A stretch of 64,000 nt of DNA from Pseudomonas asgharzadehiana (GTDB taxonomy: Bacteria; Pseudomonadota; Gammaproteobacteria; Pseudomonadales; Pseudomonadaceae), in assembly GCF_019139815.1 (NCBI RefSeq), contig NZ_CP077079.1, positions 1,426,001 through 1,490,000 on the forward strand, written 5' to 3'. Both the position numbers and the translations under genes were made by a program. The notes below the pieces were generated by a model that saw only the letters and a program-made list of their open reading frames with translations, did no database searches and was not told the DNA's origin. Positions 13,580 to 54,262 of the stretch are shown here, piece after piece. The stretch's first letter is position 1, and each line of letters opens with the position of its first letter.

Positions 13580-13794
13580 TCAATACCTTACGAAGATTTG
13601 TCTAATAGATGACTCAAGATCGTCTAATACTACCGTGTATCGACGCGCTATGAAAAAGGCTACGAATGATAAACGCTCATCAGTATGAAGGAATTTTGTA
13701 GCCCATTTCTTTTAAGTCTTGCAGCGCATAAACTGATGGTGTAAATGTGCCATCACTGATGGCACGGATGAAATTGGTTGAGAGGGAGCTGATA

Positions 13795-14523
13795 ATGGGT
13801 TTGCCTAAGCTTGAGTCTTGGCAGGTTGAGGCACTGAGATTTTCACTTTTCTTTGCTGTGCCTGTTAACGCACAACATCAGAAATGGTGGGAAAGTTTTG
13901 CGGGGCGAGAGGCCGAAGCCAAGGTAAATAAACCACATCTTGGTGAATATACTGAAACTGGCAGCTTTTTAGATGGGCAATGTGAGTTAAAGATTTTATT
14001 CAATAGGGTTGACTGGGCTGTATCATTTCCATTTGCAGGACTTCCCCATTCACCCTCGCACTTAGAGCTTAAAGTGCTTCTTGCGGAATGGTTAATGGCT
14101 ATTAGTCGATGGATGAATAACGAAGGTTTCACGCCTCAGAGAATAGCGCTGGGCGTTGCGATGATTGTTCCTGTAGCTAGTGAAAAATTTTCCAACTCTG
14201 TTATAGAAAGTTTTTTTCCTTTTGTTGATTTTACAAGTAAAAATTTGATTGATATCGCTATTCAAGTCAACTCTCCAACTCCTTCGTTAAGGCTCCCTGG
14301 CTTGTCGATTAATAGGCTTGTAAGGCTTAATACAGCTACGCGGCAGGTTGTAAATATGGCGGCGTCAGGAGTGCCGGTTGTAGAGGCGGATACTGTGCTG
14401 AGGTGTGATCTTGATATAAATACATCTCCTCAATGGATGAATTTATTTGGCGTTCGGTCAGCTATAGATATTGTTGAGGAAATGATTGGGGATGTTGAAG
14501 TTATCTTAACTAAGAGTATTTAG
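13795..14523 (+). CDS. Unknown protein, first gene of an AT-rich three-gene cassette
   Basis: 242 residues from the ATG at 13795, which has GGAG 6 nt upstream; three earlier in-frame starts lack this. No family is recognised with confidence. The N-terminal EALRFSLFFAVPV and the late VLRCDLDINTSPQW suggest, weakly, the sporadic TIGR04255 group (about 250 residues, often in mobile or defence contexts). There is no signal peptide or membrane segment. The gene is clearly richer in A+T than mutS or the phage genes. The next gene begins 2 bp after its stop, so the two are probably one transcript. Confidence 0.72.
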   Translation: MGLPKLESWQVEALRFSLFFAVPVNAQHQKWWESFAGREAEAKVNKPHLGEYTETGSFLDGQCELKILFNRVDWAVSFPFAGLPHSPSHLELKVLLAEWLMAISRWMNNEGFTPQRIALGVAMIVPVASEKFSNSVIESFFPFVDFTSKNLIDIAIQVNSPTPSLRLPGLSINRLVRLNTATRQVVNMAASGVPVVEADTVLRCDLDINTSPQWMNLFGVRSAIDIVEEMIGDVEVILTKSI

Positions 14524-14525
14524 TT

Positions 14526-15083
14526 GTGAATAATTCAGTGTATGAGACGTTTTCTCTTGGTTGGATAGAAGAGCAAGCAACTCCCGATTTGGGCGGCGCG
14601 GTTTATATTGAGAATCGTAGTTTGGCTGAAAAGCACTGCTTAAGTGAAGGTGGGAGGTCTCCAAATATTACTAATGTGCGCGAAGAGTTATGCACTAAAT
14701 ATTCAAGCGCCACATATCATATGTCCTTAACAACAAAGTATTCGGCGTTGCTCAGCTCTGTTGATCTCACTCTTGGGAACCACAAAAAAGCCCAGGAACT
14801 CCTGTATCACTGGGAAGGGAACCAGCACGGGCGCATTGCTTCAGTATTTGCGGTCTTTTTTATTGAAAGAAATTACGCCGCTATGAACCTAGAAGCCATT
14901 AACTCACTGATGCTTACAACATCGGTAAAGAGGCTTACTGAGTGGTCCATGGTTGCAATGTTGCGAGCTTCATTTTCAGCTAAACAATCTCTTCCGGCTT
15001 GGGAGGTGTTTTATAAACAAGTCAAGCTGCAATTAAAAGACAATCCGCGCATTAGTAGGCTTCTGGCGGGTCTGGATGACTGA
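14526..15083 (+). CDS. Unknown helical protein, second gene of the cassette
   Basis: 185 residues from a GTG start 2 bp after the preceding stop. Not recognised. The middle and C-terminal parts look all-helical and TPR-like (LGNHKKAQELLYHWEG, then aromatic and Ala-rich helices to LSRLLAGLDD-like ending ISRLLAGLDD). No catalytic motif, signal peptide or membrane segment is visible. AT-rich like its neighbours. Tight spacing on both sides suggests a co-translated partner of the flanking proteins. Confidence 0.65.
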   Translation: MNNSVYETFSLGWIEEQATPDLGGAVYIENRSLAEKHCLSEGGRSPNITNVREELCTKYSSATYHMSLTTKYSALLSSVDLTLGNHKKAQELLYHWEGNQHGRIASVFAVFFIERNYAAMNLEAINSLMLTTSVKRLTEWSMVAMLRASFSAKQSLPAWEVFYKQVKLQLKDNPRISRLLAGLDD

Positions 15084-15113
15084 TTTTAATTTCAAAGGAT
15101 GCTGGGGCTTACC

Positions 15114-15779
15114 ATGGGTTTGGAGTTGCATAAGTTTGACGTTGAATTGCCTGAAGATGTAAGCTTGGCTCTCGTTATCTGTGGGGATCTTGGCGTTGAA
15201 GAGCAGCGTCATACTGGTTTTGTTGTGCGCAATATGATGGGTGAAACTTACCTGTTTCATCTCGCCACGCATAATGATTTCAGAAAGGGTCAAGTTAGCT
15301 TAAGCTATAATTACTTGTTGATTCCCTACCTCGAGCCTGCCGTAGAAGTACCAATCGTGGCGTTTCTTTTTTTACTGCATCATGACACTCAAGGTAGAAT
15401 TTCTTATTCTACAGAGTACCAGGATCGAGATTATTTCGATGGCGATGGTAAGCTTGTTTTAGTTAAGCCGAGTGATGGCTTTACTTGTGCTACCTTTGTT
15501 TTGGAGACTATGCGAAAGTATGGGATGGACTTAGTTGATCGTTCGACATGGCCGATTAACGAGAAGGACGCAGAATGGCAAAGGAATATAATCGGCCGAG
15601 TCGGTCTTAATCTTGAGGAATTCCTTGCTCAGATTGAAAATATCGGAGAATATCCTCGATTCCGTCCCGAGCAGGCTCTTGGGGCTGCTCACTATTACGA
15701 GGGTAAGAAGCTCTCCTATAACGTAGTGCATCCAGCAGGTTTGGAAGTGATTTACGAGATGGCGCGGCTCCGCGCATAA
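15114..15779 (+). CDS. Unknown protein, possible circularly permuted papain-fold (NlpC/P60-like)
   Basis: 221 residues from ATG 15114 (GGGG 6 nt upstream; an in-frame ATG at 15099 is possible). A histidine in QRHTGFVVRN (about residue 33) precedes a cysteine in GFTCATFVLETM (about 125), with extra histidines in YLFHLATHND. His-before-Cys with this spacing is the order in permuted NlpC/P60 (YiiX-like) cysteine hydrolases. This is inference from order and local context, not a domain match. It ends at a small hairpin (AACACCTCAAGTGTT plus T residues) 5 bp before the convergent integrase stop. Confidence 0.68.
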   Translation: MGLELHKFDVELPEDVSLALVICGDLGVEEQRHTGFVVRNMMGETYLFHLATHNDFRKGQVSLSYNYLLIPYLEPAVEVPIVAFLFLLHHDTQGRISYSTEYQDRDYFDGDGKLVLVKPSDGFTCATFVLETMRKYGMDLVDRSTWPINEKDAEWQRNIIGRVGLNLEEFLAQIENIGEYPRFRPEQALGAAHYYEGKKLSYNVVHPAGLEVIYEMARLRA

Positions 15780-15784
15780 ACACC

Positions 15785-16771
15785 TCAAGTGTTTTTTGGC
15801 ATCATTGGTGGTAGTCCTACATTAGTTTTTCGCAGGCGTAGATATCGCTGTGTCATCCTGGCATCGGTGTGGCCACCGAGCTTCTGTGCGTCGTTGCCCT
15901 GGTCGTCGGTATCGGAAAGCGACTTGGCGCGCAGGTCGTGCAGGCTCGCGTCCTCGACCCCAGCCTTCTTGCAACTGATCGCGAAGGCGTCCTTCACCGA
16001 GCTGTAGTGCACTGGCTTTCCGCCGCGCGGCGAGCAGAAAAGGGTGAGCCCGCGGATCTTCCGAGGGAGCGCTCTGGCCCTGGCGATCAGGTCTTCTAGG
16101 TCGGGTGTCATCTGCACCAGCAGCCTCGCATTCGTCTTCTCCTGCTTGAACGCGATTCCTTCGGGGCTGATGTCGACCAGCCGGATGGCCAGCACGTCGC
16201 CGATCCGCTGGCCGGTCAGATAGCACATCTCGTAAATGACCCGCATGTTGTCGCTGGAGTTTTCGCAAATCGCCTGGAATTCACCGTGGGTAATGTAGCG
16301 GTCGCGCCTGTGTTCAAGATGGCGCCGAATGCCGGTGCACGGATTTGAGTCAACGATCTGCTGCTCCAAGGCGTAGGTGAACACCGCCCGAAGCACCGAG
16401 ATCACCCGGTTTGACATGTTTGGCGTGTCCGCCATGTGCATTTTGAGCGCTACGACGTGTCGCTGGAGAACCTCGCGCGGCTCAAAGTCGGCGAAGTTTT
16501 CCTTCAGCCGCTCGCAGGCTGCTTCGTACTGCTTCAGTGTGTTCGGCTTCAGCGCGGGCTTTGTCCTGGTGCGCATGTATTCGAGCGCATCGTCGATCAG
16601 CTTCGGCATTCCGCCCTGGCTTCCCTTATCCAGCAGCTTGGCGTATTCGGCCAGGGATGCCTGGAAGTCAGTGCCCAGGCGCTTCCATTTGCCTTTGCGG
16701 ACTAGGTAGTAAGCGCCATGCTTCTGGTACATGCACGCCGGCAGGTGCCGGTCCTTCTTGCGCGGACGCAT
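15785..16771 (-). CDS. Phage tyrosine integrase
   Basis: Site-specific recombinase, 328 residues. An N-terminal AP2-like/arm-binding part is followed by a core-binding SAM-like domain (about 55-155) and a catalytic domain with Arg189 (TGQRIGD), Lys212, His278-Arg281 (LHDLR), His301 (GGHTD) and nucleophile Tyr310 (QRYLR), all present. It is the leftmost recognisable phage gene and reads toward mutS. A DUF4224 gene lies just upstream, as in many Pseudomonas prophages. Confidence 0.95.
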   Translation of the reverse strand: MRPRKKDRHLPACMYQKHGAYYLVRKGKWKRLGTDFQASLAEYAKLLDKGSQGGMPKLIDDALEYMRTRTKPALKPNTLKQYEAACERLKENFADFEPREVLQRHVVALKMHMADTPNMSNRVISVLRAVFTYALEQQIVDSNPCTGIRRHLEHRRDRYITHGEFQAICENSSDNMRVIYEMCYLTGQRIGDVLAIRLVDISPEGIAFKQEKTNARLLVQMTPDLEDLIARARALPRKIRGLTLFCSPRGGKPVHYSSVKDAFAISCKKAGVEDASLHDLRAKSLSDTDDQGNDAQKLGGHTDARMTQRYLRLRKTNVGLPPMMPKNT

Positions 16772-24727: not shown

Positions 24728-25007
24728 CGTTACTGCGGCATTGCCGCGCAAAAGCATGAGCGACCTAGAGCGGCGCTTTCTTAAGATCGCTGGTGAGGAG
24801 CTGGCCGAGGTCAAAGTTGGCGGGCCGAGCGCGCTGGCTTACCTGCTGGACATGGTCGCCAGTTGGCACGGCAGCCGGGCCCAGATCGGTTTCCATGACT
24901 TCGGGCAACGCTGGCTTATCGAGGGCAATGCAAAGAACAAACCCGCTGACCGGTTGCTGCGTGACCTGTTTGGCCTGAGTGATCCAGATCCGAGGAAAGC
25001 CGCATGA
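24720..25007 (+). CDS. Hypothetical protein between helicase and antiterminator
   Basis: 95 residues from ATG 24720 (AAGGGGAG upstream), overlapping the helicase stop by 8 bp. Helical, with MSDLERRFLKIAGEELAEVK and WHGSRAQIGFHDFGQRWLIE. Unknown function. Confidence 0.65.
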   Translation: MGNVTAALPRKSMSDLERRFLKIAGEELAEVKVGGPSALAYLLDMVASWHGSRAQIGFHDFGQRWLIEGNAKNKPADRLLRDLFGLSDPDPRKAA

Positions 25008-25390
25008 AGAAGCGTACCTACACCGACAAGCCGCTTGGCGATACGGAATACCTGTTGGAGCAGTGGGGCTGGTGGCGCATGGATGGTATGGGGGTGCCCC
25101 GGTACGTGTCGCCGCTCTTAGCGCTCATGCGTGACAATGTCCAAATGGCGAGCCCGTCCAGCTACGTGATCACAGATGATCAGGCTCTCGCGGTGGATTC
25201 TGCCATGGCAAAGCTGACGCGCCGTAATGAGCAGATGGGTTTGTTCCTCTGGCTCTACTTTGGCGCCAAATGGACGATGGTGCGAATAGGGGAGTCGGGC
25301 AAAATGTCAGAGCGCTCGACAAGAGAAGTAATCAAGGCCGGAGTAGGTTGGATTGATGGAGTCCTACACGGGATGAGCGATGCCGCGTAA
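25004..25390 (+). CDS. Antitermination protein Q-like
   Basis: 128 residues; resembles the phage Q antiterminator family (YLLEQWGWWRMDGMGVPRY, AMAKLTRRNEQMGLFLWLYF, MSERSTREVIKAGVGWIDG). Its position as last early gene, before the lysis and head genes, fits. It would let RNA polymerase read through a terminator into the late genes. Confidence 0.8.
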   Translation: MKKRTYTDKPLGDTEYLLEQWGWWRMDGMGVPRYVSPLLALMRDNVQMASPSSYVITDDQALAVDSAMAKLTRRNEQMGLFLWLYFGAKWTMVRIGESGKMSERSTREVIKAGVGWIDGVLHGMSDAA

Positions 25391-25462
25391 ATAGTCCTTT
25401 CATGCCGGATGCCGACCTGTTTTCATGGCACGGTGTTTAGCTGTTCCAGCACGACACCACAG

Positions 25463-25490
25463 AAAAGCCCGACAAACGAGTCGGGCTTTT
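25463..25490. terminator. Bidirectional terminator between Q and the reversed lipoprotein gene
   Basis: AAAAGCCCGAC and GTCGGGCTTTT form an 11-bp stem with a six-base loop, able to end both the early operon and the convergent gene at 25526. Confidence 0.9.
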
Positions 25491-25525
25491 CCAATGATTT
25501 AATATGAGACGATTTTTGTCTAAGG

Positions 25526-26347
25526 TTATGGCTTTGGTTCAGAGCTTAACTGCATGCACTCAAGATATTTTACTTTGTCTGATATTACATCTGCATATAG
25601 TTTGGATAGGCCTGTATCATCCCCTGCGTCAGACTTAAAGTTAGTGCTTTGAAAAGCGGTGTTGTAGATCACCTTGATGCTTTCTTCAGTTTTGAATGAA
25701 TTCTTCTCTACATCGGTGCGCGCATTTTTTTGAAGATTTAGAGCATCTGCGGAAGCGTCTATGTTGATTGTGGCGATGATGTTTTCCGCGATCGCTTTAT
25801 TTTCTAATGTTCTGTAATTTGAAATGCCTTTAGCGATAGCCATTGGAAGGTTTTCATCCGTTAAGCTTTCAGCTGGGGGAGCGATTTTCAATGAATTTAA
25901 ATATGAGGCCCCAGCTTGGGACGCTGAGATTTTCTGAAGGTCATCACCTTTTTTATTAATACTCTCTACATAAGGGATTGCACATCCCAACTTATAGTAG
26001 GCGGAAGAGTAAATTTTTGATTGTTCTTCAAAGTTTCCCCATGACTTAAATCCTAGTGAGGTTAAGATAATGGCTCCAGCTGATTTGTATAGATCAGAAT
26101 GTGAGTCTGTTGCTAACCCTATTGCCCCGACTCCCGCGCCGCCTAGGGCTACTAAGTTCAAGGTGGAACTGTTTAAATTTGCCCCGTTTGCATATTCGGC
26201 CAATTCATTTTGTATGGACATCATCCGACAAATGCTTGGAGTTGCGGAGGTGCATTTTGTAGTGGATAAATCCATTGGGCGAAGATTTTTTCCACTGCAT
26301 CCAAGAAGCATAGTTAGCGATATAAGTAAGATTGTTAGCTTGCTCAT
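25526..26347 (-). CDS. AT-rich putative lipoprotein, moron candidate
   Basis: 273 residues. A lipoprotein signal with lipobox LLGC (Cys17, then Ser, consistent with outer-membrane sorting) is followed by an unrecognised domain with a hydrophobic stretch (LNLVALGGAGVGAIGLA). It is reversed between Q and the lysis genes, is clearly more AT-rich than its neighbours, and is flanked by terminators on both sides. That is the hallmark of an independently expressed lysogenic-conversion gene; superinfection exclusion at the envelope is one possibility. Confidence 0.78.
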   Translation of the reverse strand: MSKLTILLISLTMLLGCSGKNLRPMDLSTTKCTSATPSICRMMSIQNELAEYANGANLNSSTLNLVALGGAGVGAIGLATDSHSDLYKSAGAIILTSLGFKSWGNFEEQSKIYSSAYYKLGCAIPYVESINKKGDDLQKISASQAGASYLNSLKIAPPAESLTDENLPMAIAKGISNYRTLENKAIAENIIATINIDASADALNLQKNARTDVEKNSFKTEESIKVIYNTAFQSTNFKSDAGDDTGLSKLYADVISDKVKYLECMQLSSEPKP

Positions 26348-48859: not shown

Positions 48860-49336
48860 TTAGAAAGTGGCTTTAGATTGCTTAATGAAGCTTACAAAGT
48901 CGATCACGATCGTAGGAGGTTTTTTATATCCACATACAGCAGGTATCTTGTACTTGGACAGTAATTTCGGAAGGGTGAGCTGGGGGGATTCATTTGATAC
49001 AAGCGGCAGGCCCTTTATCTCAGCTGTTGCGATAATGATTAAATCATTTTCTCCTACACCAGCTCCGTATCGATTCCCATCGATTTCTAATAATGCTTTA
49101 AGTCTGGCTGCACATCGCAATATGGCTGTGTCAGGGTGGAGAATGCTTATATCCTCATCCTTCAGCCATTTACCGCACTCGGGTGTTTTAGCCGTTGTCT
49201 CGTCGAAAGCAACCAATGGCATCGAAATTGTGCCAAGGAATATTTGATTGCTGACCCAATTCCAAAGCTTTGGAAACTGCTCTTTAGGGTAATTGTCCCA
49301 AGCATATATCATTGATGAAGCATCAAATGCCCACAT
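48860..49336 (-). CDS. DUF4411 PIN-like protein, putative toxin
   Basis: 158 residues. WAFDASSMIYAWDNYPKEQF-type start (acidic residue at 5), an acidic VAFDETTAKTP, and GENDLIIIATAEIKGLPLVS give the PIN-nuclease layout of four acidic positions. Family DUF4411, predicted RNase toxin. Overlaps by 14 bp the gene for an Xre-metallopeptidase protein, its likely antitoxin. Confidence 0.8.
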   Translation of the reverse strand: MWAFDASSMIYAWDNYPKEQFPKLWNWVSNQIFLGTISMPLVAFDETTAKTPECGKWLKDEDISILHPDTAILRCAARLKALLEIDGNRYGAGVGENDLIIIATAEIKGLPLVSNESPQLTLPKLLSKYKIPAVCGYKKPPTIVIDFVSFIKQSKATF

Positions 49337-50468
49337 AGAATTCCTTAAGGCTATCTATATCCCTGATTTTAATTCCGTCTAAGTAGGTGCTGGCTTTCGC
49401 GAGACTGATATTTCTTGCATTAAGAGAGTCGAGTACCACCCGCACAAATCCATCGCCAAAAATGTGCTTTGGCTCTCGATGTCTAAATGCTCTATTACCG
49501 CTTTGGTCAAGCTCTGGCATTTTCAGGCGCGCGCGATAGCTCCTGTAAGCTTCGTATTCATCGTTTCGTATGAAACCTTCGTCGCGAAGACGTCGAATTA
49601 TAACCTCGCCGCTCACACCCCACGCTTTTCTCTGTGGCTCAAGCCAATCGTCAAAATCCTCTGCGTCATCTGGCTTGCTGCCTAACTCTATAAGGCGCAA
49701 AAAACTGTCTGGTACTAAAACTAACCCTGCGAATTCGTTGGCTTCTTTCTCATGACCGCTCGCATTATGAAAATCACCATCATCATCAATAGAGCTTTCA
49801 TTGTGCAGCAAAATGTGCCCAAGCTCGTGCATTAGAGTGAAGGTCTGAAGAGTCTCAACATACTGTTTTTTAACAAAAATAAGAGGGCATTCTTCGCTGT
49901 ATAAAGAGAACCCAAGAACTGGGTTTTCTTTAGCTATTTGCCACTGCCCGTGATACCCGTTACTTCTAAATACGAGTATTCCCTTCGCTTCTACAGCAGT
50001 GCGGTACTGCTCAAACGTAGAGTGCTTCTTTAAGCATAGCCACTCTCTTGTTGCATGAGCCGCTTCTTTGACATTTTCTGAAATTTCCGGAGGTGCAAAT
50101 CGAGCGATATCTTCATTTTCGATATCGCTTACCAGATCTAGATAAATATCTCTCTGCCGCTCAGCGCGTTCAATTAGATTGCGGAGCTTATTGTTAATAG
50201 TGGGCTTTTGATTTGCTATACTACGAAATGCGGCGGTATGGATTGTCACCGGATTAGCTTCACCTTCCTCCATGAAAAAGAGAACACCACGGCCAAAGTA
50301 GTCTGCGATTCTCTTCAGCTGGGCGAAAGATAGCCCTCGCTCCCCCTCTGCAGCCTTCGACAATGTGGCCTCAGCCACTCCAGTCTCCGAAGCAAGTGTT
50401 CGCAACGATATGCCGCTTTCCCGGCAGCACCAACCGATCCGTGCATGATTGAAATCTATTCGCTCCAT
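49323..50468 (-). CDS. Xre-ImmA/IrrE metallopeptidase, putative antitoxin/regulator
   Basis: 381 residues. N-terminal XRE HTH (ISLRTLASETGVAEATLSKA) is followed by an ImmA/IrrE-type zinc peptidase domain with MHELGHILLH (HExxH) near residue 215. In this class the protein both represses the operon and may be inactivated to release the toxin. First gene of the pair. AT-rich relative to the phage genes. Confidence 0.85.
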   Translation of the reverse strand: MERIDFNHARIGWCCRESGISLRTLASETGVAEATLSKAAEGERGLSFAQLKRIADYFGRGVLFFMEEGEANPVTIHTAAFRSIANQKPTINNKLRNLIERAERQRDIYLDLVSDIENEDIARFAPPEISENVKEAAHATREWLCLKKHSTFEQYRTAVEAKGILVFRSNGYHGQWQIAKENPVLGFSLYSEECPLIFVKKQYVETLQTFTLMHELGHILLHNESSIDDDGDFHNASGHEKEANEFAGLVLVPDSFLRLIELGSKPDDAEDFDDWLEPQRKAWGVSGEVIIRRLRDEGFIRNDEYEAYRSYRARLKMPELDQSGNRAFRHREPKHIFGDGFVRVVLDSLNARNISLAKASTYLDGIKIRDIDSLKEFYVGI

Positions 50469-52651: not shown

Positions 52652-53470
52652 GTGGCTATAGGGACATGCAAGCTGACATTGAAATCCGGGAAGTTTGTGA
52701 AGTCACACATGATTCCCCTAGCGTTCTCAGCTCCAAGCGAGGGGTGCTATTTCATCGATGGAGCACCGGGAGGTCGTCCGACCAGGAGGCCGACTAGTTG
52801 GTATGACCGTGAACTGGTCACGCGCTCAGGCGAGGATATTCTCGCTGATTTGGACAGCTTTGCTGCGACTGAACTTCGCAATGCGCGATTAGTTTGGAGT
52901 GGCTGGGGGAAAGAAACGGTAATCAAGGATAAAATAATTAAATATCCGGAGAGCGAGCAATTCGTTCGTTTAGTTCCTGATCTGGATGTTCTAAAGTTGC
53001 GAATTTTTTTTCTTAGTTTGCTTTGGAGATCTGCGGCATCTGACATGCCACAATACGCAAATATTAAATTACAAGAGTGCGAGTTGGAAAAGCTTAGGCT
53101 TATGGTTTTAAACAAAAACCCATATCCTTTAAGTTTTTTTCCGGTGCATCTAACTCAGATGGTAACTCGTGGTGCACGTCACAACCTTGGCCCGTTGGAA
53201 ATGAAAACTCCTTTGGACTTTGGCGCTGGAAATGGGCCATTGATGTTAAATAGCTACCGGTTCTACTTTGATGGGTTAATAGCAAATATACATACAAACG
53301 TCTCGGAAAAGTTTCACGCAGGGGCTTCTGCTATTTATGTAGGAGGCGATGCTATCGTAATAGCAAACTGCATTAAGTTCGAAGATTCTTTTCAAGCTTC
53401 TAATATGATCCAGCATGGGTGCGAGGCCTTTATGAGCCACCAATCCACTATGCTAAAACTCCTCAAGTAA
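52652..53470 (+). CDS. AT-rich unknown protein
   Basis: 272 residues from GTG 52652 (GGAGG 6 nt upstream). Begins MAIGTCKLTLKSGKFVKSHM followed by IP, recalling the SHxIP motif of several mobile-element proteins. The rest is unrecognised, with GLIANIHTNVSEKFHAGASA near the end. Markedly AT-rich from about 52900 on. It stands alone, with its own terminator. A defence or lysogenic-conversion role is a guess. Confidence 0.7.
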   Translation: MAIGTCKLTLKSGKFVKSHMIPLAFSAPSEGCYFIDGAPGGRPTRRPTSWYDRELVTRSGEDILADLDSFAATELRNARLVWSGWGKETVIKDKIIKYPESEQFVRLVPDLDVLKLRIFFLSLLWRSAASDMPQYANIKLQECELEKLRLMVLNKNPYPLSFFPVHLTQMVTRGARHNLGPLEMKTPLDFGAGNGPLMLNSYRFYFDGLIANIHTNVSEKFHAGASAIYVGGDAIVIANCIKFEDSFQASNMIQHGCEAFMSHQSTMLKLLK

Positions 53471-53917: not shown

Positions 53918-54262
53918 GTCTAAAACTACCCCCGCCTACCGCGTATTCACTGACCTGAAACGCGTCTAAATGACGGTATGGTTTTAGACAGTGAAATGCT
54001 GAAAGCCACGTTTTACGTGGCCTATGCACTGTTCCAGCCCATACTGCTGCATCATTGGGGTGTGGGAGGACAGATCGGACGTATTTTTACTCATTGGGTA
54101 GTAGGCAAATTCGTTGAAAGTGATGGGGCAAAGGGCGCGCTTGGCCCAGCAGTTTTTGCGATGGCGGCAAGGTTAACATGCGAGGTCGGCCCTTCGCAGG
54201 TCGCAAACGGAGAGGCAAAATATGAAAGGGTATGACTCAACCACGTGGGTTACAAATTCAGG
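53918..54262. other. Intergenic stretch without a supported gene
   Basis: A frame of 85 codons is open at 53978-54235 but has no ribosome site and no family resemblance. Nothing else is recognised in this 345-bp stretch. Confidence 0.5.

Follow-up and report, generated by a model that had tools for sequence, protein, structure and literature searches.

A compact cassette of three genes, here called A, B and C, lies at the edge of a prophage inserted next to mutS in the 64,000-nucleotide stretch of Pseudomonas DNA that was analysed (the window). The trio is a real unit. Its gene order is kept and its members are inherited together, its slot in the prophage is exchangeable, the third protein carries an invariant His and an invariant Cys, and proteins of the TIGR04255 type take the place of A in some loci. 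With slightly better than even confidence, we read the trio as an undescribed, prophage-borne anti-phage module that probably acts by abortive infection, in which A would sense the infection, B would restrain its partner and C would be the effector. The defence part of this reading draws on the slot, the sparse distribution and the neighbouring genes.

Prophage edge and cargo slot at mutS

The preliminary description placed three nearly touching forward genes between mutS and the integrase gene, and the list of open reading frames agrees with it, coordinates included (Table 1). Alternative starts exist for two of the genes. An in-frame GTG at 13747 is possible for A, and an ATG at 15099 is also open for C, where 15114 is likelier as the start of most homologues. 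The spacing is 2 bp between A and B and 30 bp between B and C (15 bp with the C start at 15099), and the three genes would be transcribed as one operon. The high A+T content noted earlier is likewise real. The cassette has 43.5% GC (A 42.0%, B 44.3%, C 44.9%), compared with 61.8% for mutS, 59.4% for int and 56.9% for the window, and among 621 segments of the same size the four with GC as low all overlap the cassette.

Table 1. Features of the cassette, its flanks and the prophage ends (positions in the window)
Feature	Position	Strand	Remarks
mutS	13579-11000	-	From the list of open reading frames
attL core GTCTAATACTAC	13622-13633	+	43 bp upstream of the mutS start; left end of the prophage
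Gene A	13795-14523	+	ATG start, 242 aa; unnamed family, proposed sensor or recognition component
Gene B	14526-15083	+	GTG start, 185 aa; conserved C-terminal part, proposed linker to or restraint of C
Codons of the conserved C-terminal Leu-x-Gly of B (Leu180, Gly182)	15063-15071	+	3 residues before the end
Gene C	15114-15779	+	ATG start, 221 aa; proposed permuted NlpC/P60-like thiol hydrolase effector
Codon of presumed catalytic His33 of C	15210-15212	+	His in 107 of 107 rows
Codon of presumed catalytic Cys125 of C	15486-15488	+	Cys in 107 of 107 rows
int (tyrosine integrase)	15785-16771	-	Borders the cargo slot
Probable attR core GTCTAAAACTAC	53918-53929	+	One-mismatch copy of the attL core; judged in the window only

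The att cores and the mutS junctions of related lysogens place the cassette inside the prophage, between attL and int. A search for the core gave two matches, where 0.06 would be expected by chance. Among six related lysogens with a correctly oriented junction, five keep the attL stub beside mutS (L046, L047, L049, L050 and L051) and in the sixth (L048) it is altered. The alternative that the cassette is host DNA outside the prophage is ruled out by the same att cores, together with lysogens in which int nearly abuts mutS. Prophages and tailocins of Pseudomonas are known to occupy the site between mutS and cinA (PMC2647930). The portion of that source at hand describes tailocin-like and unrelated prophages at this same chromosomal site and does not mention such a cassette.

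Relatives of the integrase (E at most 1e-60) are present in 9 of 298 Pseudomonas genomes, including the one analysed. In the eight others, the interval between mutS and int is empty four times (L046, L050, L051 and L053), and it holds a 264-aa Zeta toxin in L049 (Pfam, 4e-35), a relative of this toxin with 75% identity in L052, a 289-aa protein in L047, and in L048 a 178-aa ORF whose start is integrase-like (50% over 38 residues). The A-B-C trio is found in the interval in none of these eight genomes. Because its contents vary among related prophages, the interval is an exchangeable cargo slot, and together with attL this bears out the position at an exchangeable prophage edge that had been proposed. 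The slot is also a place to look for further systems. Two viral contigs (L015 and L017) carry mutS, the trio and int arranged as in the window, with identities to the genes of the window of 93 and 98% for mutS and 69 and 93% for int. In another genome (G079, locus L031), the neighbour of mutS is a divergent trio, which adjoins an S24/HTH repressor gene, and no integrase lies between. As a separate observation, where the Zeta-toxin kinase occupies the slot (L049 and L052), no neighbouring ORF of at least 60 aa looks like an antitoxin.

Inheritance and database matches of the trio

Loci were gathered from plasmids, genomes and viral contigs, and duplicates from the same genome or contig were removed, leaving 24 distinct loci (the window, L002-L008, L010-L015, L017-L023, L026, L027 and L030). 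Contig ends cut three of these just before C (L020, L021 and L022). The order A-B-C on a single strand is kept in all 21 uncut loci, the window included, with genes that overlap or lie almost end to end. With models built from seven loci, A and B were detected next to C in all 11 of the additional distinct uncut loci, and L026, L027 and L030 were matched too, though they lay outside the later training sets. When a model of window-type A proteins was run against 199 Pseudomonas genomes, it found A in two, both of which carry the trio.

The three proteins also appear to have diverged together. Across 11 loci their pairwise distances co-vary (rho of 0.80 for A and C, 0.84 for B and C, and 0.78 for A and B, with 0 of 2000 shuffles in each case), at mean pairwise identities of 0.29 for A, 0.27 for B and 0.37 for C. 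The neighbour tally that had been proposed as a check on co-inheritance therefore came out in its favor, with the order kept in 21 of 21 loci. It would take a striking coincidence for these to be three independent adjacent morons with no joint function. That none of the three families is characterized would fit such an arrangement, but the constant order, the co-varying distances and the overlapping or nearly touching genes contradict it. Damaged copies are seen in two loci, where A and B are intact. C is truncated in L033 and is missing about 45 residues in L013. These broken copies are compatible with C being a costly effector, although they prove nothing.

The description of all three proteins as unrecognized has held. 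Pfam, NCBIfam and PADLOC gave no significant match for A, B or C, and the two weak Pfam matches of B lie below the cut-off (SLC35F at 0.029 and DsrC at 0.12). PHROGs gave the only matches, all to function-unknown families: 11486 for A (0.0048), 12704 for B (1.2e-4) and 11836 for C (5.7e-13). Likewise, no named defence system was matched, since PADLOC-DB 2.0.0, which covers named anti-phage systems, returned nothing for the three proteins at E values up to 1. A match to ordinary phage head or tail genes would have spoken against the proposal of an undescribed system. None was found in Pfam or PHROGs, and that identity is rejected for the trio.

Other collections were similarly silent. The sequences of PDB entries offered nothing credible for B, for C or for A of either the window type or the TIGR04255 type, and a search of 50,697 phage records with A and three C proteins gave no match. 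None was found in E. coli DNA. Searches of the literature recovered no paper on TIGR04255, and the trio is absent from the titles and abstract openings of the best matches for papain/NlpC-type defence, the mutS site and prophage cargo.

The predicted hydrolase and its partner proteins

The third protein had been described as a possible cysteine hydrolase, and this assignment is now probable. A protein search with C returned 46 proteins, namely its own and 45 others with 34-82% identity. A later profile search, which scored the 8000 candidates sharing the most words with C, gave at least 90 proteins, none of which has a precomputed Pfam domain. In an alignment of 107 rows (105 distinct), His33, Thr124, Cys125 and Pro185 are invariant, and Trp146 and Trp155 (105 of 107 each) and Arg182 (106 of 107) are nearly so. 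The residue at position 53, a polar residue after the His, is His in 62 rows and Asn in 38, which together make 100 of 107. The His lies in an H-x-G motif and the Cys in C-x-x-F-V, and the His precedes the Cys. This is the order of permuted NlpC/P60 proteins, and it is reversed in the canonical type (L084 and L087).

C and the permuted NlpC/P60 group (YiiX/Peptidase_C92, LRAT and Tox-Act1) have the His before the Cys and both motifs in common, and possibly also a later polar residue, which in C is mostly His or Asn. Tox-Act1 is a permuted NlpC/P60 toxin with phospholipase activity, and both of its residues His43 and Cys151 are needed for toxicity (PMC12994826, seen in part). Its His and Cys are 108 residues apart, whereas those of C are separated by 92. 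C also differs from the group by its lack of a significant Pfam match, by an extra conserved C-terminal part that includes Trp146, Trp155, Arg182 and Pro185, and by having A and B as partners wherever the locus is uncut.

Direct comparisons gave mixed results. The alignment of C with one YiiX-type sequence (L070) has a P value of 0.0027, was equaled by 0 of 100 column shuffles, and brings both the His and the Cys motifs into register. With two canonical, unpermuted NlpC sequences the P value is 0.022 and 1 of 100 shuffles was as good, and only the Cys motif is aligned. The scores of C against canonical NlpC are equal to or better than those against LRAT. For LRAT (three sequences) and a longer C92 set (12 sequences), 9 and 10 of 100 shuffles, respectively, were as good, and the P values of 0.08-0.18 are no better than those of A and B proteins used as controls, the lowest of which was 0.10. 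Since the controls stayed at P values of at least 0.10 with the same sets, only the YiiX-type and canonical NlpC matches stand out. The link to permuted NlpC/P60 proteins by hhalign is weak, reaching a probability of 11% at best. Pfam searches with 61 C members gave nothing significant, and the best scores were for AdoMet_MTase (0.014, five members) and Peptidase_C54 (0.16, one member). Judged from its residues and motifs, C is probably a permuted NlpC/P60-like enzyme, which is not to say that the case is proven.

Enzymes of the LRAT type act in lipid metabolism (PMC12994826, seen in part), and this lends some credit to the idea that the trio is lysogenic-conversion or metabolic cargo unrelated to phage, perhaps for lipid or cell-wall metabolism. 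We consider this improbable, because one would not usually expect of metabolic genes a sparse distribution, a replaceable first component and a copy at a known antiphage hotspot. A superinfection-exclusion or phage competition factor, which would block entry or maturation of related phages without killing the cell and in which C would process a phage or envelope protein, is somewhat less improbable. Peptidases, too, are found among proteins with a papain-like fold, and the position at the prophage edge beside int would suit such a role. However, A, B and C contain no strongly hydrophobic 19-residue segment (the highest mean hydropathy is 1.2 in A, 1.1 in B and 1.7 in C). The trio also occurs on plasmids, as well as in one chromosome (L010) where no mobile gene was recognized by eye in the flanks examined.

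Conservation in B is seen towards its C terminus. Of 18 aligned proteins, all have Arg147, Trp159 and Gly182 and all but one have Leu180, and homologues end 2-14 residues after the conserved Gly. It is unusual for a tail to be conserved, and this one could act on C as a docking or inhibitory peptide.

The first protein had been described as possibly TIGR04255-like, and this claim must be divided. By sequence, A of the window is not a member of the family, as it gave no match to the NCBIfam model of TIGR04255 and none by hhalign to five TIGR04255-type A proteins, and membership is rejected on these grounds. Nonetheless, in 8 of the 21 uncut loci the A position is taken by a TIGR04255-type protein, although its sequence has no detectable relation to that of the A protein of the window. 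The family was recognized by the NCBIfam model in L004, L006 and L030/L058, and by a model of such proteins in the rest. A model trained on window-type B proteins alone found B in all eight of these loci (E values between 1.7e-7 and 4.9e-3) but gave no match in the other TIGR04255 operons examined. That the first component can be exchanged beside a conserved B and C suggests a recognition role for A. Since B has diverged no more slowly than A, it is this exchange, and not the pace of change, that speaks for A as a sensor.

Inspection of a small number of cases suggests that TIGR04255 more generally heads modular three-gene operons. The model scored over its cut-off in 10 of 119 Pseudomonas genomes, with one gene each, and in eight of these the gene heads a nearly touching run of three genes on the same strand (L054, L055, L057, L058 and L060-L063). 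The two others are cut by a contig end (L059) or are without a close second gene (L056), and a gene below the cut-off in L064 also heads a run of three. Among these Pseudomonas runs, B and C of the window type are present only in L058, and the other arrays have different second and third genes.

Some of these other arrays resemble each other. In five of them (L054, L055, L057, L060 and L061), the second protein has an HTH-like stretch (by Pfam below the cut-off in L061 and by eye in the others), and the third has a THDC or SHSC motif, with no significant Pfam match in the two that were scanned. These are possibly another type of three-gene system. In L062, L063 and L064, a middle protein with a WDG motif is followed by a different, unnamed third protein.

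Distribution and proposed function

C is sparsely distributed, being present in 5 of 298 Pseudomonas genomes and in 4 of 398 genomes of a phylum-wide sample, with the genome analysed counted in both. A scan of viral contigs with the single protein found nothing, and a scan with the alignment found 10 loci. Seven of the 12 loci from genome collections (the window, L002, L003, L004, L008, L011 and L030) have a mobile context, assigned partly by eye, and these contexts comprise a prophage, a tailocin-type site, an island with a recombinase and Tn7-like genes. The other 12 of the 24 loci come from viral and plasmid collections, and mobile context is therefore partly a matter of selection.

Six copies directly adjoin a tyrosine integrase gene (the window, L008, L015, L017, L018 and L019), as called by Pfam for L008, L018 and L019 and by similarity to the integrase of the window for L015 and L017. 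Four copies adjoin a UmuC-type polymerase gene (L002, which is the same as L009, L014, L022 and L023). One copy (L013) adjoins HsdS/HsdR and another (L006) is near genes for a QueC-like protein, a multiubiquitin protein, an E1-like ThiF and DUF6527. Variable slots and defence neighbourhoods are accordingly found in part of the loci only. The truncated C of L033 (in genome G085) is part of a trio downstream of Tn7-like TnsD/TniQ genes and a gene for a weakly TniB-like ATPase, and is followed by what appears by eye to be an IS3-like transposase fragment.

The neighbours of L021 are genes of a P2-like phage, one for a portal protein and one for a gpP-like terminase. Such phages have an antiviral hotspot between gpA and gpQ (PMC9122126, seen in part). 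As presented there, the hotspots of P2- and P4-like elements are likewise small loci of high turnover between conserved phage genes, whereas the slot in the window belongs to another prophage, in which attL and int enclose it. Neither TIGR04255 nor papain is mentioned in the main text of that paper.

Two copies reside on small plasmids. One of these (L007, 6.6 kb) has replication and mobilization genes and carries little cargo other than the trio, and the other (L005) is 6.9 kb. Such a setting recalls an addiction module, or three-part toxin-antitoxin system, that would stabilize its element without sensing phage, with C as the toxin, B as the antitoxin and A as a regulator or chaperone. The Zeta toxin among the relatives of the slot and the decay of C beside a retained A and B in L033 fit this scheme as well. 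Even so, no antitoxin family was found in the trio by Pfam, NCBIfam, PADLOC or PHROGs, and a RelE/ParE-type toxin gene is already annotated on the 6.9-kb plasmid. Moreover, A is large, and in 8 of 21 loci an unrelated family takes its place, which is more like a sensor. We regard an addiction module as unlikely, and toxin-antitoxin systems and abortive infection overlap in any case.

For the anti-phage module that we favor, the following course of events might be envisioned. C would be a cytosolic cysteine hydrolase of the circularly permuted NlpC/P60 type, in which His33 precedes Cys125. In the lysogen, B would keep C inactive, possibly by means of its C-terminal Leu-x-Gly tail. When another phage infects, A would recognize a phage product and C would be released. 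The freed enzyme might then damage a component of the cell, perhaps membrane phospholipid, as permuted NlpC/P60 enzymes do, and the infected cell would die or arrest before the second phage could multiply. Defence cargo of prophages that uses an enzyme as its effector is a kind of system already known. If the proposal is correct, three uncharacterized families would be given a role at once, and a permuted NlpC/P60 enzyme would be added to the effectors of prophage-borne defence. The likely catalytic residues are identified, so the module is directly testable.

More tentatively, the trio might belong to a broader modular class of three-gene immune systems. Interchangeable recognition proteins, from either the A family or TIGR04255, would come first, the middle protein would match the third, and the third would be an exchangeable effector, permuted NlpC/P60-like here and another unnamed protein elsewhere. 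In the version seen here, phage infection would unleash a phospholipase-type enzyme from the C-terminal tail of its inhibitor. This broader view is a doubtful extension of the first, but if true it would make TIGR04255 testable as the head gene of three-gene conflict operons.

The prophage carries further accessory genes. Near its right end and attR, a second accessory pair on the reverse strand (48860-50468) consists of overlapping genes for a DUF4411/PIN-like protein and an XRE-IrrE (Peptidase_M78) protein, the latter of which matches the RmrA models of PADLOC (E of 2e-19). A 272-aa ORF on the forward strand (52652-53470) lies in a low-GC stretch just inside the probable attR and has no Pfam match at 1e-3. 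Finally, a lipoprotein-like ORF on the opposite strand (25526-26347, reverse) is a possible moron. It sits in a patch of low GC (47% at 25001-26000) and, by eye, is flanked by genes for a DnaB-like helicase and a lysozyme-like protein.
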